A stretch of DNA of 64,000 bases from Nocardioides aromaticivorans (GTDB taxonomy: Bacteria; Actinomycetota; Actinomycetes; Propionibacteriales; Nocardioidaceae): positions 1,426,001-1,490,000 of the forward strand of contig NZ_JACBZM010000001.1 in NCBI RefSeq assembly GCF_013408525.1. Reading direction: 5' to 3'. The translations under genes were made by a program, and so were the position numbers. Positions 29,698 through 49,751 of the stretch are shown here, piece by piece (position 1 is the stretch's first letter; the number at the start of each line of letters is the position of its first letter). The notes beneath the pieces were generated by a model. That model did no database searches. It saw only the letters and a list, made by a program, of their open reading frames with translations, and had not been told where the DNA came from.

Positions 29698-29718
29698 GGT
29701 CGGAACGCCCAGGCCGGG

Positions 29719-31068
29719 TCAGAAGAGGAGGGCGGTGCCGGGGTCGCTGATGATGCCGGCGACGTCGGCGAGGAACTGGGTGCCGGTGGCGCCGTCGACG
29801 TGGCGGTGGTCGAAGGACAGCGACAGCGTCATCACCTGGCGGGGGACGACCTGGTCGCCGACCACCCACGGCTGCGGCTTGATCGCGCCGAGGCAGAGGA
29901 TGGCGGACTCGCCGGGGTTGATGATCGGCGTACCGCCGTCGACGCCGAAGACGCCGATGTTGCTGATCGTGAAGGACCCGCCGGCGAGGTCGGCCGGCTG
30001 GGTGCGTCCCTCGCGGGCCGTCGACGTGAGGTCCTCGAGGGCCCGGGCCAGCTCGACGAGCGAGAGGGCGTCGGCGTCCTTGACGTTCGGGACGACCAGG
30101 CCGCGCGGCGTGGCGGCGGCGATGCCGAGGTTGACGTAGCGCTTGACCACGACCTCCTGCGCTGCCTCGTCCCAGGTCGAGTTCACCAGCGGTGTACGAC
30201 GAAGGGCGAGCAGGCACGCGCGGGCGGCCACGAGCAGCGGGCTGACCTTCACCTCCGCGAACTCGCGGCGCTCCCGCAGCCGGTCGACCAGCTCCACGGT
30301 GGCCGTGGCGTCGATGGTGACCCAGGTCGTCGCGTGGGGCGCGGAGAAGGCGGAGGAGACCATCGCCGCGGCCATCTGCTTGCGCACGCCCTTGACCGGC
30401 TCGCGGGTCTCGCGCGCACCGGCCGCTGCGGTGCTGGTCGCGGATCGGCCGGCGGCAGCGAGCACGTCGTCCTTGCTGACGGTTCCCCCGGGGCCGGTCG
30501 CGGGGACAGCGGTCAGGTCGACGCCGAGGTCGCGGGCGAGCCGGCGGACCAGGGGCTTGGCGAGGGCGCGGACGGCACCGGGGTCTCGTGACGGTCGCTG
30601 CGCGACCTCCTCGACCACCGGGGCGTCGACCACCGGGGCGGCGACCACCGGGGGCTCCACGACCGGGGCCGCAGGCACCGCGTCGCCCTTGCGCGCCCGG
30701 CGCCGGAGCGTGCGCTGCTTCGGCCCGTAGCCGACGAGCGTGGCCTGGCCGGCGGGCGGGACGTTGGTGTCGATGACCTCCGGACCGCGGGCGGGAGCGG
30801 GCGCGGGGGCGGCGGCGCCCTCCTCGCCGATCCGGATGATCGGCGTACCGACCTGGACGGTCTCGCCCTCGGCCGCCAGCAGCGCGAGCACGGTGCCGGC
30901 GAAGGGCGAGGGCAACTCGACGACGGACTTGGCGGTCTCGATCTCGACGATGACGTCGTTGACGGCGACGACGTCGCCCTCCTTGACCCGCCACGCCACG
31001 ATCTCGGCCTCGGTGAGGCCCTCACCGACGTCGGGGAGCTTGTACTCGCCGGCAGTCTGGGTGCTCAT
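29719..31068 (-). CDS. bkdC: Dihydrolipoamide acyltransferase (E2) of 2-oxoacid dehydrogenase complex
   Basis: A 449-aa E2 from ATG 31068 (RBS GGAGGA). Domains: lipoyl domain ~1-85 with VEIETAKSVVELPSP (lipoylated Lys), a linker ~86-165, the peripheral-subunit-binding domain (~170-205, VRRLARDLGVDLTAVPATGPGGTVSKDDVL) and the catalytic acyltransferase domain ~220-449 ending with SLSFDHRHVDGATGTQF (catalytic His). It transfers the acyl group formed by E1 to CoA. It is the third gene of an E1alpha-E1beta-E2 operon. A 40-bp dispersed repeat is inserted in frame in the linker, giving VVEEVAQRPSRDP at residues ~150-163. Branched-chain 2-oxoacids are the likely substrates; E3 is not encoded here. 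Confidence 0.92.
   Translation of the reverse strand: MSTQTAGEYKLPDVGEGLTEAEIVAWRVKEGDVVAVNDVIVEIETAKSVVELPSPFAGTVLALLAAEGETVQVGTPIIRIGEEGAAAPAPAPARGPEVIDTNVPPAGQATLVGYGPKQRTLRRRARKGDAVPAAPVVEPPVVAAPVVDAPVVEEVAQRPSRDPGAVRALAKPLVRRLARDLGVDLTAVPATGPGGTVSKDDVLAAAGRSATSTAAAGARETREPVKGVRKQMAAAMVSSAFSAPHATTWVTIDATATVELVDRLRERREFAEVKVSPLLVAARACLLALRRTPLVNSTWDEAAQEVVVKRYVNLGIAAATPRGLVVPNVKDADALSLVELARALEDLTSTAREGRTQPADLAGGSFTISNIGVFGVDGGTPIINPGESAILCLGAIKPQPWVVGDQVVPRQVMTLSLSFDHRHVDGATGTQFLADVAGIISDPGTALLF
30582..30621 (+). repeat. 40-bp dispersed repeat, copy A (inside E2 gene)
   Basis: Starts GGTCTCGTGACGGTC and ends CTCCTCGACCACCGG. The element includes the hairpin GGTCGC-TGC-GCGACC shape and near-inverted ends (GGTC..TCGA / TCGACC). 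It is embedded in frame in the E2 linker. Confidence 0.9.
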
Positions 31069-31079
31069 CGCGGTCCTCC

Positions 31080-32057
31080 TCAGTAGCCGAACGTGCGGTC
31101 GACGGCGTCGAGCACCCGGTCGAGGTCGGGCAGGAACATGTCCTCGATCCTCGCGGCGGGGTACGGCGTGTCGTAGCCACCCACGCGCAGCACGGGCGCC
31201 TCGAGCGAGTGGAAGCACTCCTCGGTGACCCGGGCGGCGACCTCGGCGCCCAGGCCGAGGGTCACGTGCGCCTCGTGGACGACGACGAGCCGGCCGGTGC
31301 GGCGTACGGACTCGTACACCGGCGCGAGGTCGAGCGGCGAGAGCGTGCGCAGGTCGATGACCTCGACCGAGCGGCCCTCCTCGCCCGCGACGGTCGCGAC
31401 GTCGAGGCAGGTCGACACGGTCGGGCCGTAGCCGACGAGCGTGACGTCGGTGCCAGGACGGACCACGCGCGACTCCCACAGCGGTGCGGCGGGCGCGCTC
31501 TCGTCGACGTCGGCCTTCGCCGAGTGGTAGAGCCGCTTGGGCTCCAGGAAGATCACCGGGTCGTCGCACGCGATGGCCTGCTGGATCATCGTGTAGGCGT
31601 CGGCGGGGTTGGAGCAGGTCACGACCTTGAGGCCCGGCGTGTGGACGAACTGGGCCTCCGGCGACTCGCTGTGGTGCTCGACCGCGCCGATGCCGCCGCC
31701 GTAGGGCACCCGGATCACCATCGGCACCTTCACCCGGCCCTGGCTGCGGAAGTGGAAGCGCGCCACCTGGCACACGATCTGGTCGTAGGCGGGGTAGACG
31801 AAGCCGTCGAACTGGATCTCCACCACCGGCCGGTAGCCGCGCAGCGCGAGTCCGACGGCCGTGCCGACGATGCCCGACTCGGCGAGCGGGGTGTCGATGA
31901 CCCGGTCGTCGCCGAAGTCCTTCTGCAGCCCGTCGGTGATCCGGAAGACGCCGCCGAGGGTGCCGACGTCCTCGCCCATCACGAGCACCTTGTCGTCGCC
32001 CTCGAGGGCCTTGCGCAGGCCGGCGTTGAGCGCCTTGGCCACGGTCATCGTCACCAT
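31080..32057 (-). CDS. bkdB: 2-oxoacid dehydrogenase E1 beta subunit
   Basis: A 325-aa transketolase-like subunit. Family features: TVAKALNAGLRKALEGDDKVLVMGEDVGTLGGVFRIT at the N-terminus, TPLAESGIVGTAVGLALRGYRPVVEIQFDGFVYPAYDQI, and the C-terminal RRTGRLVVVHEAHVTLGLGAEVAARV. With E1alpha it decarboxylates 2-oxoacids using thiamine diphosphate and acylates the lipoyl group of E2. Its ATG follows the E1alpha stop by one base, and an ATG three codons inside is an alternative start. The gene is 11 bp upstream of E2. Operon order and sequence favour the branched-chain complex over pyruvate dehydrogenase. Confidence 0.92.
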   Translation of the reverse strand: MVTMTVAKALNAGLRKALEGDDKVLVMGEDVGTLGGVFRITDGLQKDFGDDRVIDTPLAESGIVGTAVGLALRGYRPVVEIQFDGFVYPAYDQIVCQVARFHFRSQGRVKVPMVIRVPYGGGIGAVEHHSESPEAQFVHTPGLKVVTCSNPADAYTMIQQAIACDDPVIFLEPKRLYHSAKADVDESAPAAPLWESRVVRPGTDVTLVGYGPTVSTCLDVATVAGEEGRSVEVIDLRTLSPLDLAPVYESVRRTGRLVVVHEAHVTLGLGAEVAARVTEECFHSLEAPVLRVGGYDTPYPAARIEDMFLPDLDRVLDAVDRTFGY

Positions 32058-32058
32058 C

Positions 32059-33186
32059 TCAGAGCACCTCCGCGAAGGACGCGACGTGGGCGTCGTACGC
32101 CGCCTGCTGCGCCGCGAGGTCGGGGGTCGTCTCGACGTGGACCAGGTCGAAGATGTCGCGAGCCACCGGCTCCGGCAGCTCGTGGCAGACGCGGCGCATC
32201 CGTACGCCGAGCTCGTCGGCCTCGTCCGCGATCCCCGCGACGTAGGCGTCGTCGGCCAGGCCCTCGGCCCGCAGGTACGCCTCGAGGCGCGCGATCGGGT
32301 CCTTGGCCTTCCACTGGTCGACGTCGGCGCTGCGCCGGTAGCGGGTGGGGTCGTCGGTGGTCGTGTGCGCGCCCATCCGGTAGGTGTACGCCTCGACGAA
32401 GGTCGGTCCCTGGCCGTCGCGGGCCCGCTGCAGCGCCGCCTGCACGACGGCGTGGGTGGCGAGGACGTCGTTGCCGTCGACGCGGACCCCGGGGAAGCCG
32501 AAGCCGTGCGCCCGCCGGTAGAGCGGGATCCGGGACTGCCGCTCCAACGGCTCCGAGATCGCCCACTGGTTGTTCTGGCAGAAGAACACCACCGGCGCGT
32601 TGTACGACGCCGCGAACACCAGCGACTCGTTGACGTCGCCCTGCGAGGTCGCCCCGTCGCCGAAGCAGGCCATCACGGCGGTGTCGCGCTCGGGGTCGCC
32701 GGTGCCGACGGCGCCGTCGCGCTGGACACCCATCGCGTAGCCGGTCGCGTGCAGCGAGTGCGCCCCGACCACGATCGAGTAGAGCGCGAAGTTGTGGTCC
32801 TTCGGGTCCCAGCCACCCTGGTCGGTGCCGCGGAACAGGCCGAGCAGGCGGACCGGGTCGATGCCGCGGCACCAGGCGACGCCGTGCTCGCGGTAGGTCG
32901 GGAAGGCGAAGTCCTGCGGGCGCATCGCACGCCCCGCACCGATCTGGGCGGCCTCCTGGCCGAGGAGCTGCGGCCACAGGCCGAGCTCGCCGTGGCGCTG
33001 CAGGGCGGTGGCCTCGATGTCGAGGCGGCGGACCAGCACCATGTCGCGGTAGAAGCCGCGCAGCTGGTCGGCGGAGAAGTCGAGGTCGAAGACCGGATGG
33101 TGGACCCGCTCGCCCTCCGGCGTCAGCAGCTGGACCAGCTCGGGCTCGTCTTCATCGGGAGCAGGTCCGAAGACGGGGTCGGTCAT
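32059..33186 (-). CDS. bkdA: 2-oxoacid dehydrogenase E1 alpha subunit (thiamine diphosphate-binding)
   Basis: A 375-aa subunit from ATG 33186 with AGGAG 8 nt upstream; the open frame extends further but without protein-like sequence. The ThDP motif is complete: GDGATSQGDVNESLVFAASYNAPVVFFCQNN (GDG...NN). YTYRMGAHTTTDDPTRYR is the phosphorylation-loop region of branched-chain E1alpha. It is the first gene of the bkd-type operon. The upstream 172-bp region contains the CTGTGG-N6-CCACAG inverted repeat at 33277-33294, a possible operator for an Lrp- or TetR-type regulator. Confidence 0.92.
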   Translation of the reverse strand: MTDPVFGPAPDEDEPELVQLLTPEGERVHHPVFDLDFSADQLRGFYRDMVLVRRLDIEATALQRHGELGLWPQLLGQEAAQIGAGRAMRPQDFAFPTYREHGVAWCRGIDPVRLLGLFRGTDQGGWDPKDHNFALYSIVVGAHSLHATGYAMGVQRDGAVGTGDPERDTAVMACFGDGATSQGDVNESLVFAASYNAPVVFFCQNNQWAISEPLERQSRIPLYRRAHGFGFPGVRVDGNDVLATHAVVQAALQRARDGQGPTFVEAYTYRMGAHTTTDDPTRYRRSADVDQWKAKDPIARLEAYLRAEGLADDAYVAGIADEADELGVRMRRVCHELPEPVARDIFDLVHVETTPDLAAQQAAYDAHVASFAEVL

Positions 33187-33276
33187 TGCACCACTCCTGG
33201 GGGCCGTCGCCGTCGGGGTCACCGGGGCGGGGTGGGGGTACTTCGGCGGCCCGACTCTAGCCACAAGGGTGGGTGG

Positions 33277-33294
33277 CTGTGGGCCGGACCACAG
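33277..33294. promoter_or_regulatory. Inverted repeat upstream of the bkd operon
   Basis: CTGTGG-N6-CCACAG, about 91 bp upstream of the E1alpha start. It is a candidate operator; no regulator gene is adjacent. Confidence 0.35.
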
Positions 33295-33358
33295 ATTCAC
33301 CTTCCACGATACTCGCGGCCCCGCCCGAGCGGTCGTCATCTACTGGCGGGTAGCCCCG

Positions 33359-34279: not shown

Positions 34280-34292
34280 GGCGCCGGGTGCG

Positions 34293-35249: not shown

Positions 35250-35352
35250 CGGCAACTCCTTGTGGAGGCGGGCGGGACCGGCCGCGCGGGCCGTGGAACG
35301 GTCGGGCGGTCATCATGTCATTGCTGCCCGCTCGCGCGGGGCTCAACCGGCC

Positions 35353-36812: not shown

Positions 36813-36830
36813 GACCCGGTGCGCCCGCCC

Positions 36831-37109
36831 TCAGTTGTTGGCCGTGATCAGCCAGACGACCACCACGCACGCGATCAGCGCGAGGGCCGTGATCAGGCCC
36901 ATCACGAAGCCGATCGTGCGCTTCGCGCTGGCGGGCGGCGGCGGCAGGCCGGGGCCGCCGTAGCCGGCGGGCGGGCCACCGTAGGCCGGCGGCTGGCCCG
37001 GCACCGGGCCGGGCGCTCCCCCGCCGAGATAGGCGGGCGGCGGCGGGGCTCCCGGCGCTCCCTGCGGGGGACCGGGCTGAGGCGGGACACCGTACGGCGG
37101 CTGGCTCAT
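36831..37109 (-). CDS. Small proline-rich membrane protein
   Basis: A 92-aa protein: the first ~62 residues are Pro/Gly/Tyr/Ala-rich (PPYGVPPQPGPPQ, PAYGGPPAGYGGPG), followed by SAKRTIGFV and one transmembrane helix (MGLITALALIACVVVVWLI) close to the C-terminus. This is a C-tail-anchored-like layout common in actinobacteria. It lies 18 bp upstream of the metallopeptidase gene and is likely cotranscribed. Function is unknown. Confidence 0.7.
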   Translation of the reverse strand: MSQPPYGVPPQPGPPQGAPGAPPPPAYLGGGAPGPVPGQPPAYGGPPAGYGGPGLPPPPASAKRTIGFVMGLITALALIACVVVVWLITANN

Positions 37110-37121
37110 GGCACCACCCTA

Positions 37122-37283
37122 GTGCCGCGTCCGGGTAGTTGTGGAACGTTTGGCGTGCGCACGGTGCGTGCATCGCAAGGCGCCGGCGCGCAGCCATACC
37201 GGGTCGTCTCGCAAGCGTCGGCAACGCCGCGAGGTGCGTGCTGTGGGTGCGCGAAGCGCTTCAGAACTTTCCGGACGCGGCAC
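37122..37283. repeat. 162-bp element with 13-bp perfect terminal inverted repeats (MITE-like)
   Basis: Ends GTGCCGCGTCCGG (37122-37134) and CCGGACGCGGCAC (37271-37283) are exact inverted repeats, and similarity continues imperfectly inward for ~25 more bases (AGTTGTGGAACG vs the complement of the other side). The interior has no coding sign and no clear target-site duplication is seen. It fills half of the 335-bp gap 37110-37444. Confidence 0.6.
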
Positions 37284-37340
37284 CAGGAGGGCCGGGCGCC
37301 TGACTCCACCTCTTCCGGGCGATTCGGCCGGGCGGGGCAG

Positions 37341-37448
37341 GTAACACGCTGTTCGCTCGACTACCCGGCGGTTGTCGGCACGTTTCCGCGCGTTTCACCG
37401 CGTGTCGGTGCCGAGAAGTGCCGGGTAGTGCGGCGAACAGCGTGTTAC
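37341..37448. repeat. Inverted repeat with 41-nt arms, containing a stop codon
   Basis: Arm 37341-37381 begins GTAACACGCTGTTCGC and arm 37408-37448 ends GCGAACAGCGTGTTAC. Three uninterrupted blocks (16, 10 and 7 bp) are separated by two short mismatch patches; the loop is 26 nt. The TAA (37445-37447) of the transglutaminase gene is part of the right arm. It probably works as a terminator for that operon. Confidence 0.85.
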
Positions 37449-38335: not shown

Positions 38336-40821
38336 GTCGTCGCCTCCGTGAGCGTCGGGAGCACGCCGAAGCTGCGCGGGCGCGGGCCGGTGGCGAAGTG
38401 CAGGTCCCGCACGGCCTCGGCGATCCGCTCGAGCTGCCCGGTGACGTCGTCGAGGAAGGCGACCAGGTGCGGCCGCTGCACGCCGCCGATCGCGACGAGC
38501 GCCGAGACGTCGGTGCCCTCGACCTCGGCGATGAGGTCGTCGAGGAGCCGCTCGGGACGGGTCGAGCCGGTGGAGGCGACCTGACCGGCCACGTGCTCCT
38601 TGAGCCGGTGGAGGGCGAAGACGAGGGAGCGGGGGTTCTCGGGGTCCATCAGGAGCAGGTCGAGGACCCCGGCGGGGCGGACGTAGTCGCGGTAGCGGCG
38701 CCGGTGCGTCACGGAGCTCTCCGCGGCGGTGAGGACCGTCGCGAGCACCTCGCGGTCGACGTCGAGGCCGCGCCGCTCGGTGGTCAGCCGGAGCAGGTGG
38801 CACAGCTGGAGGCCGCGCTCGAGGTAGCGCCCGGCGGCGGCCATGTGCCAGCCGGCGTCGCGGATCATGCTGGCCGTCACCCCTTGCAGGGCGAGGACCG
38901 CGGTCAGCATCCGTCCGGCGGACTCGGCGACCTGGTGGCTGTGGTGCGAGCCCTCCAGCACCGTCCGCGCGCGGTCGACCGAGCCCATCGCCCGCCAGGC
39001 GTCGGCGGACATCTGGTCGCGCACCCCGGTCAGCGCGTCTCGCAGGCCGGCCAGCGAGTGCGCGGCCGACCCCGGTCGTTCCTCGTCGAGCAGCACGGAG
39101 CGCAGGTCGGCCTCGTCGTCGTCCTCGACGCGCCCGGTGAGCCGGTGGACCGCCGACATCGTCACCTCGAGGCTCATTCCGCCGGTGGTCCGGGGGCGGG
39201 TGCGGTAGTCGGCGACCAGCACGTGCGCGGCGAGCACCAGCCGCAGCATGTCCTCCGACCGCTCGGCGTAGCGGCCGAACCAGAACATGTCGTCGAGGAC
39301 GCGCGGCACCGTCGCCGGCAGCGAGCGCACCGCGGTCATCGGGAGGACGTCGGTGAGGCCCTGGTCCGGCTGCGTCGTCTCGTCCTTGAGAACCCACACG
39401 TCCTTGCTGGCGACGGTCCGGTCGCCGTCGCGCGCGGTCGCGAGGCCACCGAGCAGCGGACGGTACGCCGACCCGTAGCGCAGCGTGAACGCGCGCAGCA
39501 GGACGTCGGCCGGCTGCGCGGTGCGCCCGCGCCAGGTCGGCGACTGCGAGAGCTGGAGCCGCTGCTGGCCCACGAAGGCGTGCGGCCGGGCCCGCACGGT
39601 CACCCGGATCCGCTCCGGCGAGGCACCGGCGAGGGTCAGGTCGGAGCCGTCGATGCTGCGCACCACGAGCTCGTCGAGGTGGTCGAGCACGTGGTCGAGG
39701 CCGTCGGGGTCGCCGCACCACCAGGTCGGCACCGACTCCAGCCGCAGCGGCTCGCCGAGCAGGTGCTCGCAGGCGGCGGGCAGGAAGGGCAGCAGGCCGG
39801 GGTTCTCGAGCACCCCCGAGCCGAGCCCGTTGACCACCCGGACCCGCCCCCGTCGTACGGCCTCGGCGAGGCCGGCGACGCCGAGCTGGGAGTCGCCGCG
39901 CAGCTCGAGGGGGTCGCTCCACGCGGCGTCGACCCGGCGCAGGATCACGTCGACCCGCTCGAGGCGCTGCGGCGTCTTCATCAGCACCCAGCCGTCGCGG
40001 ACGGTGAGGTCACTGCCCTGGACGAGCGGGAAGCCGAGGTTGGAGGCGATCGCCGCCTGGTCGTAGTAGGTCTCGGAGTGCAGCCCCGGACTGAGTACGA
40101 CGACGCGCGGGTCCGGCAGGTCACCGGTGGCCGACTGCAGCAGCGCCGAGCGGAGGGCCCACAGGTAGGGCGCCATCCGGTGCAGGTCGGCCTCACGATA
40201 GAGCTCCGGCATGACCCGGCTCAGCACGCGCCGGTTCTCGAGGGCGTAGCCGAGGCCCGAGGGCGCCTGGGTGCGGTCGCCGAGCACCCGCCACGCGCCG
40301 TCGCCGTCACGGCCGAGGTCGGTCGCCGAGAGCACCAGCGGGCGCGGGTCGCGCATCGAGGGCCGCGCCATGATCCGGGTGAATCCGCGGTGGCCGAGCA
40401 CGACCGCCGGCGGCACGATCCCCTCCGCCAGCAGGGTCTGGTCGCCGTACAGGTCGGCCAGCACGGCGTTGAGCAGCTCCGCCCGCTGGGCGAGGCCGAC
40501 CTCGAGCTGCTTCCACGACGAGGCGTCGACGATGAGCGGGACCGGGTCGAGCCGCCAGCGGGTGGGGCGCTCGCCCGGGCGGGAGTAGGTGACGCCGTCG
40601 TCCTCGAGGAAGCGGGCGATCTCCTCGGCGACCCGGCGCATGTCGTCGCCGTCGATCTGCGTGGCGACCTCGGCCAGGCGCTTCCAGGGAGCGCGCAGCG
40701 AACCGTCCGGCCCGACGACCTCGTCGTACCGGCTCGTGACCTCGTTGTCACCGCCGTCGTCACCGGGCCCCGCCAGGGTCGGCTGGGTCAGTCCCGCGGC
40801 GTAGTCCCGCAGAACCGTCAC
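38332..40821 (-). CDS. Circularly permuted ATP-grasp + alpha-E domain protein
   Basis: An 829-aa protein from GTG 40821, overlapping the previous gene by GTGA. The first ~480 residues are a circularly permuted type 2 ATP-grasp ligase (AVVLGHRGFTRIMARPSMRDPRPLVLSATDLGRDGDGAWRVLGDRTQAPSGLGYALENR; VVLSPGLHSETYYDQA; VDVILRRVDAAWSDPLELRGDSQLGVAGLAEAVRRGRVRVVNGLGSG). The remaining ~310 residues (VPRVLDDMFWFGRYAERSEDMLRLVLAAHVLVADYR...) are the helical alpha-E domain. The two are often separate genes and are fused here. Predicted to form amide bonds with ATP; substrate unknown. Confidence 0.9.
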   Translation of the reverse strand: MTVLRDYAAGLTQPTLAGPGDDGGDNEVTSRYDEVVGPDGSLRAPWKRLAEVATQIDGDDMRRVAEEIARFLEDDGVTYSRPGERPTRWRLDPVPLIVDASSWKQLEVGLAQRAELLNAVLADLYGDQTLLAEGIVPPAVVLGHRGFTRIMARPSMRDPRPLVLSATDLGRDGDGAWRVLGDRTQAPSGLGYALENRRVLSRVMPELYREADLHRMAPYLWALRSALLQSATGDLPDPRVVVLSPGLHSETYYDQAAIASNLGFPLVQGSDLTVRDGWVLMKTPQRLERVDVILRRVDAAWSDPLELRGDSQLGVAGLAEAVRRGRVRVVNGLGSGVLENPGLLPFLPAACEHLLGEPLRLESVPTWWCGDPDGLDHVLDHLDELVVRSIDGSDLTLAGASPERIRVTVRARPHAFVGQQRLQLSQSPTWRGRTAQPADVLLRAFTLRYGSAYRPLLGGLATARDGDRTVASKDVWVLKDETTQPDQGLTDVLPMTAVRSLPATVPRVLDDMFWFGRYAERSEDMLRLVLAAHVLVADYRTRPRTTGGMSLEVTMSAVHRLTGRVEDDDEADLRSVLLDEERPGSAAHSLAGLRDALTGVRDQMSADAWRAMGSVDRARTVLEGSHHSHQVAESAGRMLTAVLALQGVTASMIRDAGWHMAAAGRYLERGLQLCHLLRLTTERRGLDVDREVLATVLTAAESSVTHRRRYRDYVRPAGVLDLLLMDPENPRSLVFALHRLKEHVAGQVASTGSTRPERLLDDLIAEVEGTDVSALVAIGGVQRPHLVAFLDDVTGQLERIAEAVRDLHFATGPRPRSFGVLPTLTEATT

Positions 40822-43800
40822 GGGCGACCCCGGGCGGTCCGCGAGGCGACCCGGCGCAGGTCGAGGGTGTGCGGGTACTCGGCCGAGGCGACCTCGCGCT
40901 GCAGGCGCCGGAGCGCGGCGACGTCGAGCTTGCCGGCGGTGTGGCGGCGCGGCTCGAAGCGGGCCGCGCGGCGGGCCTCCGCCTCCTGCGCGTTGACCGG
41001 CGGGTGGTCGTAGTTGCGCCCGCCCGGGTGGACCACGTGGTAGGTCGCGCCGCCCAGGCTGACGCCGGCGTCGACGTCGACCACGTCGAAGGTCAGCGGG
41101 GAGTCGACCGGGATCGACGGGTGCAGCGCCGACCAGGGCGCCCAGGCCTTGTAGCGCACGCCGCCGTAGTGACCCGTGGGCGCGGGTCCGGGGTCGACGG
41201 CGGTGAGCGGCACGGGAACACCCTGACACGTCACCAGGTGGCGCTCGGGGTCCATTCCACGCACCGTCACCTGGATCCGCTCGACCGACGAGTCGACGTA
41301 GCGTGCCGTCCCGCTGCCGGTCGCCTCCTCGCCGAGCACGTGCCACGGCTCGACGCCCTGGCGCAGCTCCATCGAGATCCCGCCGGCGACATCGGCGAAG
41401 CCGATCCGCGGGAAGCGGAACTCGGTGAAGGGCGCCAGCCACGCGGGGTCGAAGTCGATCCCGGCCGCGGCGAGGTCGGCGACCACCTCGTGGATGTCGG
41501 CGATCGCGCCCTGCGGCAGCAGGAAGTCCTCGTGCAGCCGGGTGCCCCAGCGCACCAGGGGCGCGGTCGACGGGTCGATCGGGCTCTCCCAGAACATCGC
41601 GACCAGGCTGCGCACGAGCAGCGCCTGGACCAGCGCCATCTCCGGGTGCGGCGGCATCTCGAAGCCGCGCAGCTCCAGCAGGCCCAGCCGGCCGCGCGTG
41701 GAGTCGGGGCTGTAGAGCTTGTCGATGCAGAACTCCGCGCGGTGCGTGTTGCCGGTGAGGTCGGTCAACAGGTGGCGCAGGGCCCGGTCGACCAGCCACG
41801 GCCGCGGCCCGGCGTCGCCGTCGGCGGCCTCCGCGACCAGCCGGGCCACCTCCGCGCAGGCGATCTCCATCTCGTAGACCGCCTCCGGCCGACCCTCGTC
41901 GAAGCGCGGCGCCTGGCTGGTGGGTCCGATGAAGCGGCCCGAGAAGACGTACGACAGCGAGGGATGCCGCTGCCAGTAGGTGATCAGGCTGACCAGGAGG
42001 TCCGGGCGCCGCAGGAGCGGGCTGTCGACCGGCTGGTGCCCGCCGAGGGTGAGGTGGTTGCCGCCGCCGGTGCCCGTGTGGAGCCCGTCGAGGTCGAACT
42101 TCTCCGTCGACAGCTTCGCCAGCCGGGCCTCGGAGTAGAGCGTCGTGGTGAGGTCGCTCAGCTCGGCCCAGCTGCGGCTGGGCTGGACGTTGACCTCGAT
42201 GACACCGGGGTCGGGCGTGACCGACAGCTGCACCAGCCGCGGGTCGGGGGGCGGCTGGTAGCCCTCGATGACGACCGGCGTCGCGGTCGCCCGAGCCGCC
42301 GCCTCGACGACGTGCAGCAGGTCGGCGTAGTCCTCGAGCCGCGTCGTCGGCAGCAGGAAGACGTGGACGTGCCCGTCGCGCTCCTCGAAGGCCAGCGCCG
42401 TGCGGTCGGCACCCTCCGGGTCCGCGAGCACGACGGCCGGCACGCCCGCGACGAGCGGCTCCCCGGCCTCGAGGTACGACGGCTGGGCCGGCGCCTCGGG
42501 GTCGACCCAGGCGATCGCGTCCAGCGGCAGCCGGAGCCCGACAGCGCTCGTGCCCGGGGTGAGCACGAGCCGCCCGCGGCGGAAGCGCCACACCGGGCTG
42601 GTCCAGCCGGTCTCCGCGGTGGCCAGCGGGAGCACCCAGCCGGTGGGCTCGGTGACGTCGGCGTCGAGCCGGGCGACCAGCTCCGCGTCGGGGTCGTCCG
42701 TGTCGTCGGTGGCCGGCCGGTCGCCGTACGGCTGGGCGACGTGGGTGGCGAGCGCGGTGAAGGGGTCCTCGTAGGCGGGGCGCAGCTGGTCCTCCGGCAG
42801 CCCCAGCAGCCGGGTCACCTCGGCGCCGAAGGCGTGGGCCCGGGGGTCTCGCGACGATCGCTGCGCGACCTCCTCGACCACCGGGGTCGCCCACGGGTCG
42901 GCCAGCAGCGCCGGGTCGCCCCACAGCGGCTCGCCGTCGCTGCGCCACTGCAGCGAGATCGCCCAGCGCGGCAGCGGCTCACCCGGGTACCACTTGCCCT
43001 GCCCCCGGTGCACGACCCCGCCGTCGGCGTACAGCTTCTGGAGCCGGGCGGCCAGGTCGACGGCCAGCCGGCGCTTCGCGGGCCCGTCCGCGTCGGTGTT
43101 CCACTCGGGCATCGAGGAGTCCTCGAGCGAGACGAAGGTCGGCTCGCCACCCATCGTCAGCCGGACGTCACCGGCCTCGAGCCGCTTGTCGACGGCCGCG
43201 CCCAGCTCGTCGATGCGCGCCCACTGGGCCGGTGTGTACGGCGCCGTCACCCGCGGGTCCTCGTGCACCCGGGTCACGGTGTTGCTGAAGGAGAAGGTCA
43301 CCTCGACCGGGTCGGTGGCGCCCTCGATCGGCGCGGCCGAGCTCGGGTGCGGCGTCGCCGACAGCGGGATGTGGCCCTCGCCGGCGAAGAGCGCGCTCGT
43401 GGGATCCATCCCCACCCAGCCCGCGCCCGGCAGGAAGACCTCCGCCCACGCGTGCAGGTCGGTGAAGTCCTCGGTCGGACCGGTCGGCCCCTCGATCCCC
43501 TCGGTCGCGAACGCGTCGGGCGCCAGCTGGACGAGGTAGCCGGACACGAAGCGCGCCGCCAGGCCGTACTGCCGCAGCAGGCTCACCAGCAGCCACGCCG
43601 AGTCGCGGCACGACCCGATCCCGCTCGCCAGCGTGTGGTCCGGCGTCTGCACGCCGGGCTCCATCCGCACCGAGTAGGCGACGTCGCGGTGCACGGCACT
43701 GTTGAGGTCGGCGAGGAACTGCACCGTCGGTACGCCGTCCGCGGGCAGCTCCGGCAGGCCGCGGCGCCACTCGTCGGCCGCCTCCGCGTCGGTCACCGGC

Positions 43801-44156
43801 CGCAGGTAGGGCGTGAGGTCGGCGGCGAGCTGCTCGTCGTACGCGAAGGGGAAGCGCTCGGCGTACTCCTCGATGAAGAAGTCGAACGGGTTGATCACCA
43901 TCAGGTCCGCGACCAGCCCGACCGTGATGTCGAGCGTCTTGACCTTCTCGGGGAAGACCAGCCGCGCCAGCCAGTTGCCGAACGGGTCCTGCTGCCAGTT
44001 CACGAAGTGGCCCGCGGGCTCGACCGTCAGCGAGTACGCCTCGATCGGCGTGCGGCAGTGCGGCGCAGGCCGGAGTCGTACGACGTGCGGCGCCACCGCG
44101 ACCGGCTCCGCGAAGTCATACGTCGTGCGGTGCTCCAGCGCGACCTTGATCGACAT
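40818..44156 (-). CDS. Transglutaminase-DUF2126 protein (predicted amidoligase-associated)
   Basis: A 1112-aa protein. Residues ~1-300: transglutaminase N domain ([32 protein letters not shown]) and core with Cys183 ([10 protein letters not shown]), His235 (DLHAWAEVF) and Asp251 (GMDPTSAL). Residues ~320-1112: DUF2126, predicted COOH-NH2-ligase-like, with [79 protein letters not shown] and [17 protein letters not shown]. First gene of a three-gene coupled operon. A 40-bp dispersed repeat is inserted in frame at residues ~425-438 ([13 protein letters not shown]). The biological product is unknown. Confidence 0.9.
   Translation of the reverse strand: [1112 protein letters not shown]
42845..42884 (+). 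repeat. 40-bp dispersed repeat, copy B (inside DUF2126 gene)
   Basis: Starts GGTCTCGCGACGATC and ends CTCCTCGACCACCGG. It differs from copies D/E at three positions, is in frame, and encodes [13 protein letters not shown] in the host protein. Confidence 0.9.
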
Positions 44157-44235
44157 GGAGCCAGCCTAGGGACACCCGGGCTGCCGCGGGTTTCGGCGAT
44201 GTCACGGACGCCGGGGTAGAGCGGGCGTGCCAATG

Positions 44236-44257
44236 GCCCCGCCGACTCCGGCGGGGC
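44236..44257 (-). terminator. Terminator-like hairpin of the HNH gene
   Basis: GCCCCGCCG-ACTC-CGGCGGGGC, 9-bp arms and 4-nt loop, 14 bp past the HNH-gene stop (44272) on the minus strand. There is no T run. Confidence 0.65.
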
Positions 44258-44271
44258 GTGGGGCGTGGTGG

Positions 44272-45615
44272 TCAGTGGCCGTCGAGCGGTGTCGTGCCGG
44301 CGGGGCCGACGTGGAAGTGGTGGCCGTGGGGGCTGGTCCACAGGTAGTGGCCGGGGCTGGTGACCTGGTAGCGCCAAGTGCTGTGGGTCTTGGCGCGGTG
44401 GTGCCGTCGGCAGAGTGGGACGAGGTTGCAGGGGCAGGTCTTGCCGCCCGCGGCGTGGGGTGGGGCGTGGTCGAGGTCGCAGCGGACCGCTTGTTGGGGG
44501 CAGTTGGGGAACCGGCAGGTGTGGTCGCGGAGGCGGACGCGTCGTTGGTGGCGGTCGGGGATCTCGTACGAGTCGACCGGAACGCAGTCGGCCAGGTCGA
44601 TGACCGGTGGGACGATGACGGTGGAGCCCGGGACCTGGAGCCATTCCCGGATCTGTGCGGTGGTGACCGGGCAGCGGCCCTCGTCCCAGCGACCGACGGT
44701 GTTGGTGGTCGAGGAGGTCGCGCAGCGACCGTCACGAGACCCCTGTGCCTGTGCTGTCAGGGCGGTGTCGGTGATGTGGACGTTCAGCTCCACCCGACGA
44801 CCGGGGGCTTGGGCGAGGACCTCACCGGTGGTCTCGTCGGCGATCAGCAGGTCGAGGGCCAGGTCGCGGCGGGCGATCGCACCGACCGCCTTCGCCCGAC
44901 GCACGTCGAGGCTGGACTCGTCGCCGAGCTGGCCGCGCAGGTGCGCCTCCCGGGCGACGGCCTGGTTGAAGTCGTGGCCGTCGGCGGCATCGAGGTAGGC
45001 GTCGAGGTGCACGCCGCCGTGTGCGTCGACCTCGTCCATGTGGACGTCGCAGTGGCGGCGGTCGTTCGCGGCTTGGCGTTCAGCTTCTGCACGTTCGGGG
45101 TCGAACCGGAGGATCGCCTCGGTCACGAGGCGTTCGAGCTGCGCCCACCCGACGCCGCCGACGGCGGCGTTGAGGTGCCGGTCCACGAACCCCGCCGCCT
45201 GCTCGGGGAGGGAACGGGTGAGGTCGGCGATCCTCTGAGCCCGCCACGGCGCGACCCGGCCGTCCACCACGGCGGCGTACAGCAGCGGGAGGCGCCAGGC
45301 GCACTCGACGACCTGACCGACATACGACCGCCCACCCTCAGGGGTCCGGCCGAGCACCGCGATGAGCTCCATCAGCTGGAACTCGCTCACGAGCGGTGCA
45401 CCCGGGCCGGCGATCGGGACACCGGTGTCGAGGTAGCCCTCCGTCAGGGTCGCGGCACCCTCAGCACCATCGACGATATTGGCGCCGGCCCAGGCGACGA
45501 TGTTCATCCACTCCCGGACCAGGAGATGGTCACGGACCTCGGCGTCGTCAGCGATCCACGACAGCAACGACGCTGTCGAGACAGTTGTCGCGGTGCCGCT
45601 GGTTCCGAGATCCAT
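44272..45615 (-). CDS. DUF222/13E12-type HNH endonuclease family protein
   Basis: A 447-aa protein. ATG 45615 is chosen (GGGAGA 8 nt upstream); the open frame extends to 45696 with unlikely sequence. The N-terminal ~290 residues are the helical DUF222 domain (WRAQRIADLTRSLPEQAAGFVDRHL, RRAKAVGAIARRDLALDLLIAD). The C-terminal HNH domain has RDHTCRFPNCPQQAVRCDLDHAPPHAAGGKTCPCNLVPLCRRHHRAKTH with metal-binding Cys and catalytic His. Such genes occur in many copies in actinobacteria and may be selfish DNA; nuclease activity is inferred. A 40-bp dispersed repeat lies in frame between the domains (residues ~292-305, GSRDGRCATSSTTN). Confidence 0.88.
   Translation of the reverse strand: MDLGTSGTATTVSTASLLSWIADDAEVRDHLLVREWMNIVAWAGANIVDGAEGAATLTEGYLDTGVPIAGPGAPLVSEFQLMELIAVLGRTPEGGRSYVGQVVECAWRLPLLYAAVVDGRVAPWRAQRIADLTRSLPEQAAGFVDRHLNAAVGGVGWAQLERLVTEAILRFDPERAEAERQAANDRRHCDVHMDEVDAHGGVHLDAYLDAADGHDFNQAVAREAHLRGQLGDESSLDVRRAKAVGAIARRDLALDLLIADETTGEVLAQAPGRRVELNVHITDTALTAQAQGSRDGRCATSSTTNTVGRWDEGRCPVTTAQIREWLQVPGSTVIVPPVIDLADCVPVDSYEIPDRHQRRVRLRDHTCRFPNCPQQAVRCDLDHAPPHAAGGKTCPCNLVPLCRRHHRAKTHSTWRYQVTSPGHYLWTSPHGHHFHVGPAGTTPLDGH
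44702..44741 (-). repeat. 40-bp dispersed repeat, copy C (inside HNH gene, opposite orientation)
   Basis: Reverse complement of the family consensus: reads TTGGTGGTCGAGGAGG to CGTCACGAGACC on the + strand. Because it is inverted relative to copies A and B with respect to the host gene, it is translated in another frame (GSRDGRCATSSTTN) and still keeps the host gene open. Confidence 0.88.
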
Positions 45616-45847
45616 GACTGGATTCTCCCATCGACCTCCGACACAACGAAGCGACGGAAACCCGCCTGTGGACAGGGGAAAATCCATCCGGCGCATGTGA
45701 AGAACTAGTCGTGCGACGAGTGATCACGAGGCCGCCGGACCGCACCCGACCGCGGGACCCAGCCCCGCACCCAGCCTCCTCGTCGCTGCGTTTGAAGACC
45801 CGACCACGCACCCAACCGAAGGGCACAGCAGGTGCACCGGAGCAAGG

Positions 45848-45887
45848 GGTCTCGAGACGGTCGCTGCGCGACCTCCTCGACCACCGG
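45848..45887 (+). repeat. 40-bp dispersed repeat, copy D
   Basis: Starts GGTCTCGAGACGGTC and ends CTCCTCGACCACCGG; identical to copy E. The TCTCGAGA palindrome is intact here. Confidence 0.92.
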
Positions 45888-46000
45888 GCGGACGGCACCC
45901 GACCGCCGAACTCAGCCCCGTACCCAGCCTCCTCGTCGCTGCGCTTGAAGACCCGACCACGCACCCAACCGAAGGGCACAGCGGGTGCGCCGGAGCCAGG

Positions 46001-46040
46001 GGTCTCGAGACGGTCGCTGCGCGACCTCCTCGACCACCGG
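46001..46040 (+). repeat. 40-bp dispersed repeat, copy E
   Basis: Same 40 bases as copy D. Lies 3 bp beyond the TGA of the membrane-protein gene at 46044-47060. Confidence 0.92.
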
Positions 46041-46043
46041 CGG

Positions 46044-47060
46044 TCACTCGGCGGTGTCGTCCGACCCGTTGATCCGCCACACGCCGTCGACCTTGACCAG
46101 CGTGAAGGTGCCACGGTCGGCCTCGCCGGCGATGGTGATGTCGACGGGGACGGAGGCCTTGCCGGCCGCCTCGTCGACGTCGGCCTTGCCGACGGTGTAC
46201 TTCAGCTGGCTGGAGAAGGGCGTGATCTCCGACGGGTCGCAGCTGCCCTCGTCCTTGATGTAGGCCTCGGTGACGAGGTCCTCCGCCGTGGCGCAGTCGC
46301 CGTTGACGAAGGCCGTCATGAAGGCCTCGACGACGGACATCGGGTCGTTGGCGACCGCGTCGGCGGTGCTGGTGCCGCCGGGGGTGGTGGCCGTGTCGGT
46401 CGGGTCGCCGGTCGGGTCGTCGGTCGAGGAGGTGCTGTCGGTCGGGTCGTCGCCGCCGCTGTCGATGGCGTACGACGCCACGAGCCACGTCCCGTCGACC
46501 TGCTCGAGGTTGAAGACGTAGTCCTCCGTGCTGCCCTCGTTGTCGAAGCTCACGGGCACGGTGGCCTCGTCGCCGTCGATGACCGGGTCGCCGACCTCGG
46601 AATCGACGTCGGAGGTCGAGAGCAGCCGGAACTCCGCGGCGTTGCACGGGTCGGCGGCCTGCGCGGTCTCGGTGAGGAAGGTCTTGGCCTTGTCGCAGTC
46701 GGCATCCCCGGCCGCGGCGATCAGGCCCTCGACGACCTTGTCGGGAGCCGCGCCCGTCGACGCCGTCGTGTCGTCGTCACCCTTCTCGTCGCCGTCGTCG
46801 TCGCTGTTCGTCAGCAGCACGACCAGCGCGACGACCACGCCGACGAGGAGCAGCGCACCGATCACGCCGAGCGCGACCAGCAGGCCCTTGCCCTTGCCTC
46901 CCGAGGCAGGCGGTGGCGGGCCCCACGGACCTCCGGGCGGCGGGCCGGACGGGCCACCGCCCGGGGGCGGGAAGCCCGGCGGCGGGCCCTGCGGCGGGCC
47001 GGACGGCGGCGGGAAGCTGGTGGGCGGGACGGCGCCGTACGGCTGGTTCGGGTCGCTCAT
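46044..47060 (-). CDS. Proline-rich membrane-anchored protein with two NTF2-like external domains
   Basis: A 338-aa protein beginning MSDPNQPYGAVPP, like the gene at 34293. Order: Pro/Gly-rich cytosolic segment (~1-53), basic GGKGKGL, one transmembrane helix (LVALGVIGALLLVGVVVALVVLL), an Asp/Thr-rich linker and two tandem external domains with the same plan. The first is APDKVVEGLIAAAGDADCDKAKTFLTE...YVFNLEQVDGTWLVASY; the second is DPMSVVEAFMTAFVNGDCATAEDLVTE...GTFTLVKVDGVWRINGS. Each has one conserved Cys pair position (DC...). DUF4878-type, function unknown. 4 bp downstream of the next gene, so cotranscribed. Confidence 0.78.
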   Translation of the reverse strand: MSDPNQPYGAVPPTSFPPPSGPPQGPPPGFPPPGGGPSGPPPGGPWGPPPPASGGKGKGLLVALGVIGALLLVGVVVALVVLLTNSDDDGDEKGDDDTTASTGAAPDKVVEGLIAAAGDADCDKAKTFLTETAQAADPCNAAEFRLLSTSDVDSEVGDPVIDGDEATVPVSFDNEGSTEDYVFNLEQVDGTWLVASYAIDSGGDDPTDSTSSTDDPTGDPTDTATTPGGTSTADAVANDPMSVVEAFMTAFVNGDCATAEDLVTEAYIKDEGSCDPSEITPFSSQLKYTVGKADVDEAAGKASVPVDITIAGEADRGTFTLVKVDGVWRINGSDDTAE

Positions 47061-47064
47061 CGGA

Positions 47065-47652
47065 TCACGGCTCCAGGAAGTCGGAGGCCCAGGACTCGAA
47101 GCCCTCGGGGTCGGTCGGGAAGTCGGACAGGAAGTCGCTGGGGAACTCGGTCGGCAGGTTGCTCGGCAGCTCGGGCAGGGGCGGCGCCTCGGAGGTCGGC
47201 TCCTCGCTCGGGAAGTCCGAGGGCTGGATCGTCGGGGTGTCGAGGGACGACGACGGTGCGTCCGGCGTCGTCTCGGTCACCGACGGGCTGGTCGCGTCGT
47301 CGGTTCCCTTGTCCTTGTCGTCGTCGTCGCGTCCGAGGAGCAGCAGCACGCCGACGACCACGACGGCGACCAGCACCAGCGCGCCGAGCACGCCGATCGC
47401 GATGCGCAGGCCCTTGCCGCCCCCGACCTGCAGCTGCTGGAGCTGCGCGGTCGCCGGTGGCGGTCCGGGCCGCGCCGCCGCTGGTACGACGACCGTCGAG
47501 TCCCCCGCGATCGGCGCGGTGTCGGGGCCGACCTGCTCCCCCGCCCCGGCCTCACCGCGGACGTGGTCGGTCCAGCCGTTGCCGTCGAACCAGCGCTCGC
47601 GGCCGCTGCCGTCGTCGTACCAGCCCGGCTGGCTGGGCGTGGGTCCGGGCAC
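47065..47652 (-). CDS. DUF2510 membrane protein
   Basis: A 195-aa protein from GTG 47652 (AGGAG upstream). DUF2510 motif QPGWYDDGSGRERWFDGNGWTDHV at ~8-31, a linker, one transmembrane helix (LRIAIGVLGALVLVAVVVVGVLLLL, ~80-105) and an acidic, Ser/Pro/Thr-rich external tail (SDFPSEEPTSEAPPLPELPSNLPTEFPSDFLSDFPTDPEGFESW) with an FPSDF/FPTD repeat. It forms a two-gene unit with the downstream NTF2-like protein gene. Function is unknown. Confidence 0.78.
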   Translation of the reverse strand: MPGPTPSQPGWYDDGSGRERWFDGNGWTDHVRGEAGAGEQVGPDTAPIAGDSTVVVPAAARPGPPPATAQLQQLQVGGGKGLRIAIGVLGALVLVAVVVVGVLLLLGRDDDDKDKGTDDATSPSVTETTPDAPSSSLDTPTIQPSDFPSEEPTSEAPPLPELPSNLPTEFPSDFLSDFPTDPEGFESWASDFLEP

Positions 47653-47755
47653 CGGAGCTCCTGGGGGGTGGGTGGACTGCAGTGGTGGACACCGTATCCA
47701 CCCGGAGACCCGCTCAACCGCGGGACCGGGAAGGCGGGACCGGGAAGGCGGGAAC

Positions 47756-48676
47756 CTAGGCCGCGGCCGTTCCCGGGTCGACGACCTGCCCGCCCGTGAC
47801 CAGCTCGAGGTCGCGGCCGAGGGTGATGTCGAGCGGGTTGGTCAGGCAGCGGACCGAGCCGCCGCCGAGGTGGAACTCCGAGACGTCGACGAGGGCGACG
47901 TCGAAGCCCAGCGTGTCGAGCCAGTTGCGCACCCGGCGGGGGCACTCCGGCATCACGACGGTCCGGTCGACGACCACGGAGTTGGCGCACCAGCTGCCGA
48001 TCGCCTCCTCCTCGCTGAGGATCACCGGCTGCGGGACGAGGTCGAGCAGCGCCGCGGCCGACTCCTCGTCGAAGGCCGACGGGCAGACCAGCGCGTGGTC
48101 GTCGTCGAGCGGGCAGAAGGCCAGGTCGAGGTGGTACATCCCGGGGTGCGTGATCCGCACGCCGCGCACCTGCACCCCGAGGTCGTGGGCGAGCTGCTTG
48201 AGCGCGAGCTCGTCGGTGCGGGGGCCGTGGCCGACGACCAGGTCGCCGCGGAACGGGAAGGCGTCGCCGGCCTCGAAGTGTGCACCGATCCCCTCGCGAC
48301 CGATGTACGACGGCGCGAAGCCCTGCGACTCGAACCATGCCCGTGCCGCCGGGGTCTCGACCCGCCGCTGCGGGTAGCGCATGTGCGACAGCACGACGGA
48401 GCGGCGGCCGGGGCCGGTCCAGTCGGGGCGCAGCGCGACGAGGCCGAGGTTCATCGCGTAGACCATGTCGGGCGCCTGCGGCAGCGCCGGGACCTCCTCG
48501 ACGGTGGCGCCGAGCGAGCGCAGGGTGCCCGCGAGCGCCTGCCACTGGTCCCGGGCGCGGACCGGGTCGGGCTGGACGGCCGGGTCCATGTACGGGTTGA
48601 TGGCGTAGTCGATCCGGTACGACGACGGGTCCACCATCGCGTAGTGCCGTCCCCACTCCAGCGTCGCCGAGCTCAT
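47756..48676 (-). CDS. Dimethylarginine dimethylaminohydrolase (DDAH)-like amidinohydrolase
   Basis: A 306-aa enzyme of the guanidino-group-modifying superfamily. ATG 48676 is chosen for its GGAGGAGG ribosome site. Motifs: MVDPSSYRIDYAINPYMDP (substrate-lid start), the catalytic His in THPGMYHLDLAFCPLD and the nucleophile Cys277 in GGGSVRCLTNPL. It likely hydrolyses methylated arginine or a related guanidine to citrulline plus amine. The divergently transcribed GntR/FCD regulator and a shared operator indicate substrate-controlled expression. Arginine deiminase-like or amidinotransferase activity is less likely given length and context. Confidence 0.85.
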   Translation of the reverse strand: MSSATLEWGRHYAMVDPSSYRIDYAINPYMDPAVQPDPVRARDQWQALAGTLRSLGATVEEVPALPQAPDMVYAMNLGLVALRPDWTGPGRRSVVLSHMRYPQRRVETPAARAWFESQGFAPSYIGREGIGAHFEAGDAFPFRGDLVVGHGPRTDELALKQLAHDLGVQVRGVRITHPGMYHLDLAFCPLDDDHALVCPSAFDEESAAALLDLVPQPVILSEEEAIGSWCANSVVVDRTVVMPECPRRVRNWLDTLGFDVALVDVSEFHLGGGSVRCLTNPLDITLGRDLELVTGGQVVDPGTAAA

Positions 48677-48726
48677 CGCCCCTCCTCCAGCAGTCCCTGT
48701 GGTGCCCATCGGCACGCCCACCCCGA

Positions 48727-48746
48727 ATTGTCAGACAATCTGACAA
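48727..48746. promoter_or_regulatory. GntR/FCD-type operator between DDAH and regulator genes
   Basis: ATTGTC-A-GACAAT (48727-48739) contains TTGTCAGACAA, a good match to the TnGTnnnACnA core of FadR-subfamily regulators. A further TCTGACAA extends it to a second inverted pair (TTGTCAGA-CAA-TCTGACAA, 48728-48746). It is 51 bp upstream of the DDAH start. Confidence 0.7.
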
Positions 48747-48826
48747 GAAGGACAGGATAGCGTCCGCACCGCGGGACCGGGAAGCGAACCCCCGCCTGCG
48801 TGTCCCGAGGCGGCAGAATGGAGCCC

Positions 48827-49528
48827 ATGCCTGCCGCTCCCGCCACCCGGAAGGCGTTCACCACGCTCAGCGTCGAGCACGCCTCGACCGTCTCGCGGGT
48901 CGCCGCCGAGCTGCGCCGAGCGGTCTTCGAGGGCGAGCTCGAGAGCGGCACGCCGCTGCGCGAGATCGCCCTGGCCGAGTCGCTCGGGGTCTCCCGCCCG
49001 ACCGTGCGCGAGGCGCTCACCGTGCTCGTCGCCGAGGGCCTCGCCACCCGTGAGCCCAACCGCGGCGTCAGCGTGGCGACTCCCCGCGCCGAGTCGGTGC
49101 GCGACGTGTGCCGCGCCCGCTGGGTGCTCGAGGGGGCAGGCGTGCAGGCGTGGGAGTCCGCCGACGCCGTACGACGCCAGCGGGTCCGCGACACCCTGGA
49201 CTCCTACACCGCGGCGGTCCGCGGCGGCGAGGCGTCGTACGAGGAGCTCAACGAGCGCCACCTGTCCTTCCACGTCTCCCTCGTCGAGCTCACCGGCAGC
49301 CCGCGCCTGGTCCAGATGGCCGAGGCGCTGATGGACGAGCTGAAGCTGGCGCTCGCCCAGGTCGACCGGCTCAACCGCAACGCCCACGACGAGGCCGAGT
49401 CGCACGAGGGCCTGGTCGAGCTGCTGGAGGCCGGCCGGCTCGAGGGGCCCGACGGCGCCCACGAGTTCCTCCGCAAGCACATCGAGGACGCCGAGGTCGA
49501 GATCATCGAGGCCCTGCGGTTGGAGTAG
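48827..49528 (+). CDS. GntR-family (FCD) transcriptional regulator
   Basis: A 233-aa regulator; ATG 48827 is used and ATG 48818 (three residues longer) is nearly as good. The N-terminal winged helix has RVAAELRRAVFEGELESGTPLREIALAESLGVSRPTVREALTVLVAEGLATREPNRGVSV. The C-terminal FCD domain (~95-225) is all-helical with the metal/ligand-type residues in NERHLSFHVSLVEL, ESHEGLVELL and RKHIEDAE. It is divergent from the DDAH-like gene and almost certainly controls it through the operator at 48727-48746. The ligand is probably a guanidino compound or its product (inference). Confidence 0.92.
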   Translation: MPAAPATRKAFTTLSVEHASTVSRVAAELRRAVFEGELESGTPLREIALAESLGVSRPTVREALTVLVAEGLATREPNRGVSVATPRAESVRDVCRARWVLEGAGVQAWESADAVRRQRVRDTLDSYTAAVRGGEASYEELNERHLSFHVSLVELTGSPRLVQMAEALMDELKLALAQVDRLNRNAHDEAESHEGLVELLEAGRLEGPDGAHEFLRKHIEDAEVEIIEALRLE

Positions 49529-49583
49529 GCGGAGGCCGTCGCGCAGGCGATCCGGCCGGCACAGAAGCTGCACCGGGGCCGGG

Positions 49584-49741
49584 CGTCTCGTGACGGTCGC
49601 TGCGCGACCTCCTCGACGAGCGGCGGGGCTGCGCGACCTCCTCGACGAGCGGCGGGGCTGCGCGACCTCCTCGACGAACGGCGGGCTGCGCGACCGCCTC
49701 GACGAACGGCGGGCTGCGCGACCGCCTCGACCGACCCGGCA
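49584..49741 (+). repeat. 40-bp dispersed repeat, copy F, expanded into a 28-29-bp array
   Basis: Copy F (49584-49623) starts CGTCTCGTGACGGTC. The internal CTGCGCGACCTCCTCGACGA segment is then repeated with CTGCGCGAC at 49600, 49629, 49658, 49686 and 49714 (spacings 29, 29, 28, 28). The array ends ~10 bp before the ATG at 49752, so it supplies the 5' region of that gene. No variable spacers, so not a CRISPR. Confidence 0.9.
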
Positions 49742-49751
49742 GACTGGGCGC

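Follow-up and report, generated by a model that had tools for sequence, protein, structure and literature searches.

The 64,000-nt stretch analyzed here (the window, G000:C1:1426001-1490000; 72.7% GC) is part of the 5.26 Mb genome of Nocardioides aromaticivorans, and within it are six copies of a 40-bp palindromic element, three of which lie inside or upstream of a gene for a DUF222-like HNH nuclease. These copies start at 30582, 42845, 44702, 45848, 46001, and 49584, and each deviates from the consensus GGTCTCGTGAC-GGTCGC-TGC-GCGACC-TCCTCGACCACCGG by 0-3 mismatches. For comparison, the best consensus match in 20 random windows drawn from an order-2 Markov model still had 11-15 mismatches, and dinucleotide shuffles gave zero matches to a 23-base core of the element. 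All six loci had been named in an earlier, sequence-only reading of this DNA, and we likewise found, as it had stated, that three of the copies reside in open coding sequence, in two orientations and two frames. The features concerned, in window coordinates, are listed below.

30582..30621, plus strand: a full, in-frame copy within the linker of the E2 acyltransferase gene (29719-31773, minus strand), to which it is antisense
42845..42884, plus strand: a full, in-frame copy within the DUF2126/transglutaminase gene (40818-44156, minus strand), likewise antisense
44207..46040, minus strand: whole unit (HNH gene plus upstream elements), left limit approximate; absent at the matching place in genomes G091, G093, G033, G099, and G042
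44236..44257, minus strand: GC-rich hairpin behind the HNH stop codon
44272..45696, minus strand: DUF222-like HNH nuclease gene (putative partner of the element), 474 amino acids from the first ATG
44702..44741, minus strand: full element, sense and in frame, within the HNH gene; this point is empty in four of seven paralogues
45736..46040, plus strand: 153-bp tandem duplication (45736-45887 and 45889-46040), each part ending in an upstream element
45822..45847, plus strand: conserved flank (GGGCACAGC.GGTGCACCGGAGC type) beside the element, common to both HNH families; second copy at 45975-46000
45848..45887, plus strand: full element upstream of the HNH gene
46001..46040, plus strand: full element upstream of the HNH gene, forming the outer junction and adjoining the stop codon of the gene at 46044
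49558..49583, plus strand: flank of the 49584 copy, like the HNH-unit flank (20 of 26 bases)
49584..49740, plus strand: full element (49584-49623) with partial 28-29 bp units after it; G145 lacks this cluster

The association between the element and the HNH genes is the main finding, and it extends throughout this genome. The window HNH product (a homologue record of which, P0122, starts at 45615 and has 447 amino acids) matches seven members of a first family, itself included (80-100%), and eight members of a second, with the two families being about 30% identical to each other. Upstream of 14 of these 15 genes there is a hairpin of this superfamily in one orientation, and the element itself is found on the opposite strand in 7/7 family-1 and 6/8 family-2 genes, at 151-235 bp and 420-424 bp from the match start, respectively. 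At the element's place, the family-2 gene at 525865 has a different palindrome (GGTTGAGGTGCGAGG...CCTCGAAACC), and the one at 4308449 has no upstream palindrome; three more distant HNH genes of this kind also had no element in the 2.5 kb examined upstream. For any given gene, the probability that an element cluster lies within 500 bp upstream is about 0.8%, though the paralogues are not independent of each other. Moreover, a GGGCACAGCGGGTGCACCGGAGC-type flank adjoins the element in both families, and at least 16 of the 26 bases of this flank are kept by 12 of 83 solo copies (0.45 expected). Homology in family 1 begins at the element cluster and stops near the hairpin behind the stop codon, and in family 2 it stops at the 3' end of the gene. 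Since the spacing is constant within families and the flank is common to both, the element was therefore copied with the gene in this genome. Not every HNH copy is intact, as the family-1 paralogue at G000:C1:671905-673317 has an internal in-frame TGA.

As to the type of protein encoded, the HNH residues are invariant in six aligned members, and PF02720 is matched by family 2 with E-values of 2e-5 to 2e-4, some above the cut-off. The window HNH protein itself scores under the Pfam cut-offs, and many of its 60-69% identical homologues bear PF02720. On the strength of a PF02720 match together with an HNH motif, we assign these genes to the DUF222-HNH (13E12) type. Here, they resemble the mycobacterial REP13E12 / DUF222-HNH repeats to which PMC10589994 refers, in that both are multicopy DUF222-HNH genes at varying sites, but a palindromic satellite is unmentioned in the pertinent passages of that article.

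Empty counterparts of these insertions were observed directly in other genomes. Sequences matching window positions 44206 and 46064 are just 30 bp apart in G091, and the flanks of the unit are separated by 61 bp in G093 and 51 bp in G033, with G099 and G042 having about 240-250 bp where the window has about 2 kb. Similarly, about 215 bp at the 49584 cluster correspond to 33 bp in G145.

Dispersal of the element is also a direct observation. With up to three mismatches allowed, the 23-base core has 158 matches in the whole genome (array units included) versus 2 for the reversed pattern, far above chance, and a 5'-part pattern has 113 matches versus 0 in reverse. A wider pattern gave 108 full-length copies, 46 and 62 on the two strands, and so the expectation of hundreds per genome in the sequence-only reading is too high for this genome; the relative G119 has 222 copies, and G133 has 153. 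In the genus, the wider pattern is present in 85 of the 147 genomes searched, and the reversed pattern in none. At the level of the order, 62 of 293 genomes have the element, most of them in its own genus; beyond it, there are 83 copies in G196, of a sister genus, and 30 in G264, of another family. These data, together with the covariation described below, bear out that this is a real dispersed palindromic family, which as a high-copy, mainly extragenic palindromic repeat of 20-40 bp is of the repetitive extragenic palindromic (REP) kind. In G125, all 15 element matches are on the reverse strand of seven contigs, which perhaps reflects contig orientation; strand-specific insertion was dropped as an explanation, given that both strands are used in N. 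aromaticivorans.

The anatomy of the hairpin was examined in 106 full copies, taken from 72 fetched stretches plus the window and chosen among the matches listed (at least two further full copies, at 3819175 and 3901943, lie outside this sample). The outer ends of the element pair with each other. Bases 1 and 35 are a G...C pair in 78 copies and a C...G pair in 25, with three exceptions, and pairing of the first four bases with bases 32-35 holds in 97.1% of cells. The inner stem has 6 bp and a 3-base loop, and with a TGC loop it reads GGTCGC/GCGACC in 67 copies, GGTTGC/GCAACC in 23 (24 when one with a CGC loop is counted), and GCTTGC/GCAAGC in one. Covariation in the hairpin was seen directly: among 52 distinct sequences, pairing holds in 96.7% of cells, and both partners are changed in 31 cells versus 9.3 in shuffles, with 0/500 shuffles reaching as high. 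Kinship among sequences inflates such tests, but the controls in which the partner is slid along the sequence show no such effect, and here pairing falls to 57% or less. At many loci, including 49584, one full copy carries partial units of about 25-40 bp on its 3' side. In the array at 2431598, the stem change of the first copy recurs in the units, and therefore arrays grow in place. Tandem arrays of this kind could underlie the ten predicted CRISPR (clustered regularly interspaced short palindromic repeats) repeats of Nocardioides dokdonensis, reported without Cas proteins in the relevant part of PMC5526307.

For a wider view of the linkage, 106 HNH loci from 35 other genomes were surveyed, these being taken from the best HNH matches rather than at random, and with the palindrome search restricted to GGTYGAG...CGARACC forms. 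Within 500 bp upstream, a palindrome is present in the same orientation at 41 loci versus 7 in the other orientation, and downstream there are 10 in the same and 20 in the opposite orientation. This one-sided linkage in one orientation is directly observed, and the 41 upstream palindromes represent 25 distinct spellings. They occur at 4/4 HNH loci in G091, 4/4 in G139, 6/6 in G025, 5/6 in G119, 5/6 in G196, and 6/7 in G334, with mixed outcomes in G033 (2/4), G062 (1/4), and G287 (1/3). A separate observation is that opposite-oriented palindromes also lie downstream at 4/6 loci in G119, 5/6 in G196, and 2/7 in G334, the gene being flanked by inverted copies. Moreover, linked and dispersed spellings agree, as seen directly in G091: its HNH-linked spelling, GTTTCGAGGCTCGCTTCGCTCGCACCTCAACC, differs from that of N. 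aromaticivorans and is dispersed 44 times in G091, and among 15 genomes it is found 122 times in G119, 7 in G139, 3 in N. aromaticivorans, and 0-1 in the other eleven. Across the 147 genus genomes, the element is carried by 85 of 137 with an HNH match at 1e-15 and by 0/10 without (Fisher p 1e-4, ignoring descent), the ten HNH-free calls resting on a screen that scored about 11 candidates per genome.

From the constant side and orientation, and from the agreement between linked and dispersed spellings, it seems that the HNH protein makes use of the hairpin next to its gene. Accordingly, the reading that we favor, with a confidence about midway between doubt and belief, is that the element is REP-like, forms a hairpin, and is mobile but non-autonomous, with the DUF222-like HNH nuclease as its partner. 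A full unit would consist of the hairpin element, the short conserved flank, and the HNH gene, with the solo 40-bp copies corresponding to its hairpin end. The nuclease would recognize the hairpin next to its own gene and nick or cut there, and copies would then join new sites with the element's 3' end outermost, often directly after a stop codon. We take this 3' end as the leading one because it forms the outer junction in HNH units and lies nearest to stop codons in solo copies. Our inference extends to the action of the HNH protein on the element, to its chemistry (nicking, copying, and joining), and to the direction of spread.

Several observations count against such a partnership, and part of them favor a landing-site explanation instead. 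In the surveyed genomes, 65/106 loci have no upstream palindrome of the searched form, among them all those of the HNH-rich genomes G123 (0/10), G014 (0/10), G002 (0/6), and G085 (0/6), which lack the element, and further those of G278 (0/5) and G340 (0/4). In N. aromaticivorans itself, the 24 GGTTGC-stem copies adjoin none of its HNH genes. As regards a MITE of a DDE transposon, which would have terminal inverted repeats and a target-site duplication, the outer ends of the element pair, but no such duplication was established from the empty sites, which come from diverged species. HNH proteins are not known as transposases. A quickly made, long-branched tree of 123 HNH proteins groups paralogues mostly by genome, and an upstream palindrome as a label takes 18 changes (at least 15 forced) versus 40 in shuffles, so that the trait is clustered but was gained or lost many times. 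Here, the linked proteins of G139 sit among the unlinked ones of G123 and G014, and, in another family, G264 (30 copies) and G255 (3 copies) have the element with no HNH match at 1e-15 in either. Both the placement of the G139 proteins and the copies in G264 speak against a partnership that is strict and intrinsic. G264 and G255 may have a different partner or a divergent HNH protein. If something else moved the hairpins, the HNH genes might insert beside them, or the hairpins might gather at dispensable HNH genes, and the linkage would then be one of target preference. This would account for the linkage following a genome's element content over its HNH clade, for the many changes on the tree, and for the copies in G264, and insertion sequences that target REPs are known. 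We nevertheless consider it rather unlikely, since one side and orientation predominate upstream, the spacing and flank indicate that element and gene were copied together here, and no other mobilizer was found in a search limited to Y1 transposases.

The placement of solo copies is REP-like with a preferred orientation. Among 72 extragenic solo copies not beside HNH genes, the stop codon of an opposite-strand gene lies no more than 15 bp from the 3' end of the element in 28, compared with a same-strand stop at most 15 bp from its 5' end in 8 (p 0.001). Together with the window unit adjoining the stop codon of the gene at 46044, this is what would be expected if the hairpin were a terminator or RNA-stability element at gene 3' ends, dispersed by an extinct mobilizer and recruited upstream to insulate HNH genes. 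However, direct reading of the element revealed no T run behind the hairpin, and a regulatory role leaves unexplained both the copy numbers in the hundreds and the lineage-specific spellings that match the HNH-linked one; such an origin thus seems decidedly unlikely.

Insertion into coding sequence, the emphasis of the sequence-only reading, proved partly right, yet it is secondary to the HNH association. Open coding frames hold 14 of the 106 full copies, as assigned by a home-made codon model requiring an open frame through the element (disrupted genes would escape it); with just these being coding and the rest extragenic, coding invasion is a side effect. Eleven of the 14 are antisense to the gene, nine of them in the PVVEEVAQRPSRDP-like frame, and the three sense copies amount to one insertion that was duplicated with its gene and is common to three HNH paralogues. 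The E2 and DUF2126 copies translate as PVVEEVAQR[PS]SRDP, and the HNH-gene copy as GSRDGRCATSSTT. That orthologues would lack the peptide holds for DUF2126 (found in 0/10 aligned orthologues) and for the four HNH paralogues with the empty point, but not throughout, as VVEEVAQ or EEVAQR is present in 8 of the best 120 E2 homologues (the window's own included, with the peptide at the same linker among the rows listed) and the HNH linker peptide in 8 of 120 homologues of the HNH protein, this genome contributing two. Because of these occurrences, some insertions are probably old or recurrent. In the HNH homologue P0137, the peptide derived from the element has grown in frame into repeated GGCATSSTTE units, which makes it a coding counterpart of the tandem arrays.

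A survey of the DUF2126 linker placed 22 of 28 loci. At or near this linker, G035 has the element (placed by interpolation) and G093 another palindrome, the latter being the real case among two automatic "element-like" flags, of which that in G051 looks spurious. Overlooked by this flagging, a short palindrome, GGTGGTCGAGCTTGTCGAGACC, was seen by eye in the linkers of G290 (L375) and G098 (L382), and it keeps the element's outer ends without the inner stem. Flexible linkers thus seem to have been hit more than once, or old insertions to have been kept there. As a part of the HNH-partner reading, and held just as halfway as the whole, the in-frame coding copies would be tolerated by-products in flexible linkers. 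The hairpin-derived peptides sit in metabolic enzymes, which is relevant to annotation. Elsewhere in the window, an imperfect inverted repeat lies at 29562-29699 (64-nt arms, 75% complementary, 10 nt between arms), and two further inverted repeats at 37118-37176 with 37229-37287 and 37341-37381 with 37408-37448 (85% complementary).

Among known systems, Rickettsia palindromic elements (RPEs) share in-frame copies inside protein genes with our element, but a coding position is not its usual placement, and the likeness to RPEs drawn in the sequence-only reading misses the association with DUF222-like HNH genes. RPEs are also longer than 40 bp. The CGTC-REPs, which include rickettsial RPE-4 and RPE-6, have an unpaired tag and 8-9 bp stems and are reported in PMC3733652 to lack a dedicated transposase, and the passages on them there name no Actinobacteria. 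Their palindromes are alike in frequently following genes and, in some species, lying within them, but the element does not belong with them, as its GGTC or CGTC 5' end pairs with GACC or GACG and its inner stem is shorter. There is also a resemblance to the GTAG-REPs and their REP-associated tyrosine transposases (RAYTs), described in the corresponding part of PMC3733652 as short high-copy hairpins, mostly extragenic and downstream of genes, with some inside genes, lineage-specific spellings, and copies beside a proposed mobilizer gene. The element is likewise a short, high-copy hairpin, mostly extragenic and downstream of genes, some intragenic, with lineage-specific spellings and a proposed mobilizer alongside. 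In contrast, it lacks the GTAG tag (copies start with GGTC or CGTC, with few exceptions), and its linked gene is a DUF222-like HNH gene. A classical REP moved in trans by a RAYT (a Y1 HUH transposase) would fit the REPs of PMC3733652, as far as they are described there, in size, palindromic form, extragenic placement, and copy number, but PF01797 had no match at E 0.001 in any of 18 genomes (16 with at least 30 element copies, plus G091 with 44 of its own spelling), versus positives in 5/14 control genomes, and we disfavor this origin as very improbable.

A last alternative concerns the HNH protein differently, with the upstream palindrome being its guide-RNA scaffold, as in IscB loci. A structured element does lie upstream of the HNH gene, and the HNH region weakly matches the model for IscB (E 0.065, 12.3 bits, cut-off 175). 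However, that match is confined to residues 391-442, there is no Rfam match in 42000-50500, many HNH genes are without the element, and the element is dispersed genome-wide, making this the most improbable of the explanations weighed here.

Returning to the HNH nuclease as the partner, a generalization that we hold more tentatively than the reading for this element is that DUF222-HNH nucleases mobilize a RAYT-independent class of REPs, in which recognition of a hairpin end by the nuclease would drive the insertion of full HNH units as well as of abundant solo hairpins in several actinobacterial lineages, each with matched spelling. In a search of open-licence PMC articles, we found no paper linking HNH or DUF222 genes to REP-like repeats, and what moves REP families without a RAYT is left open in the part of PMC3733652 that treats them. 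If true, a partner from another enzyme class would make the mover of RAYT-less REPs directly testable, and a multicopy HNH family of Actinobacteria, whose members are mostly named hypothetical or "HNH/DUF222 domain-containing", would gain a role.

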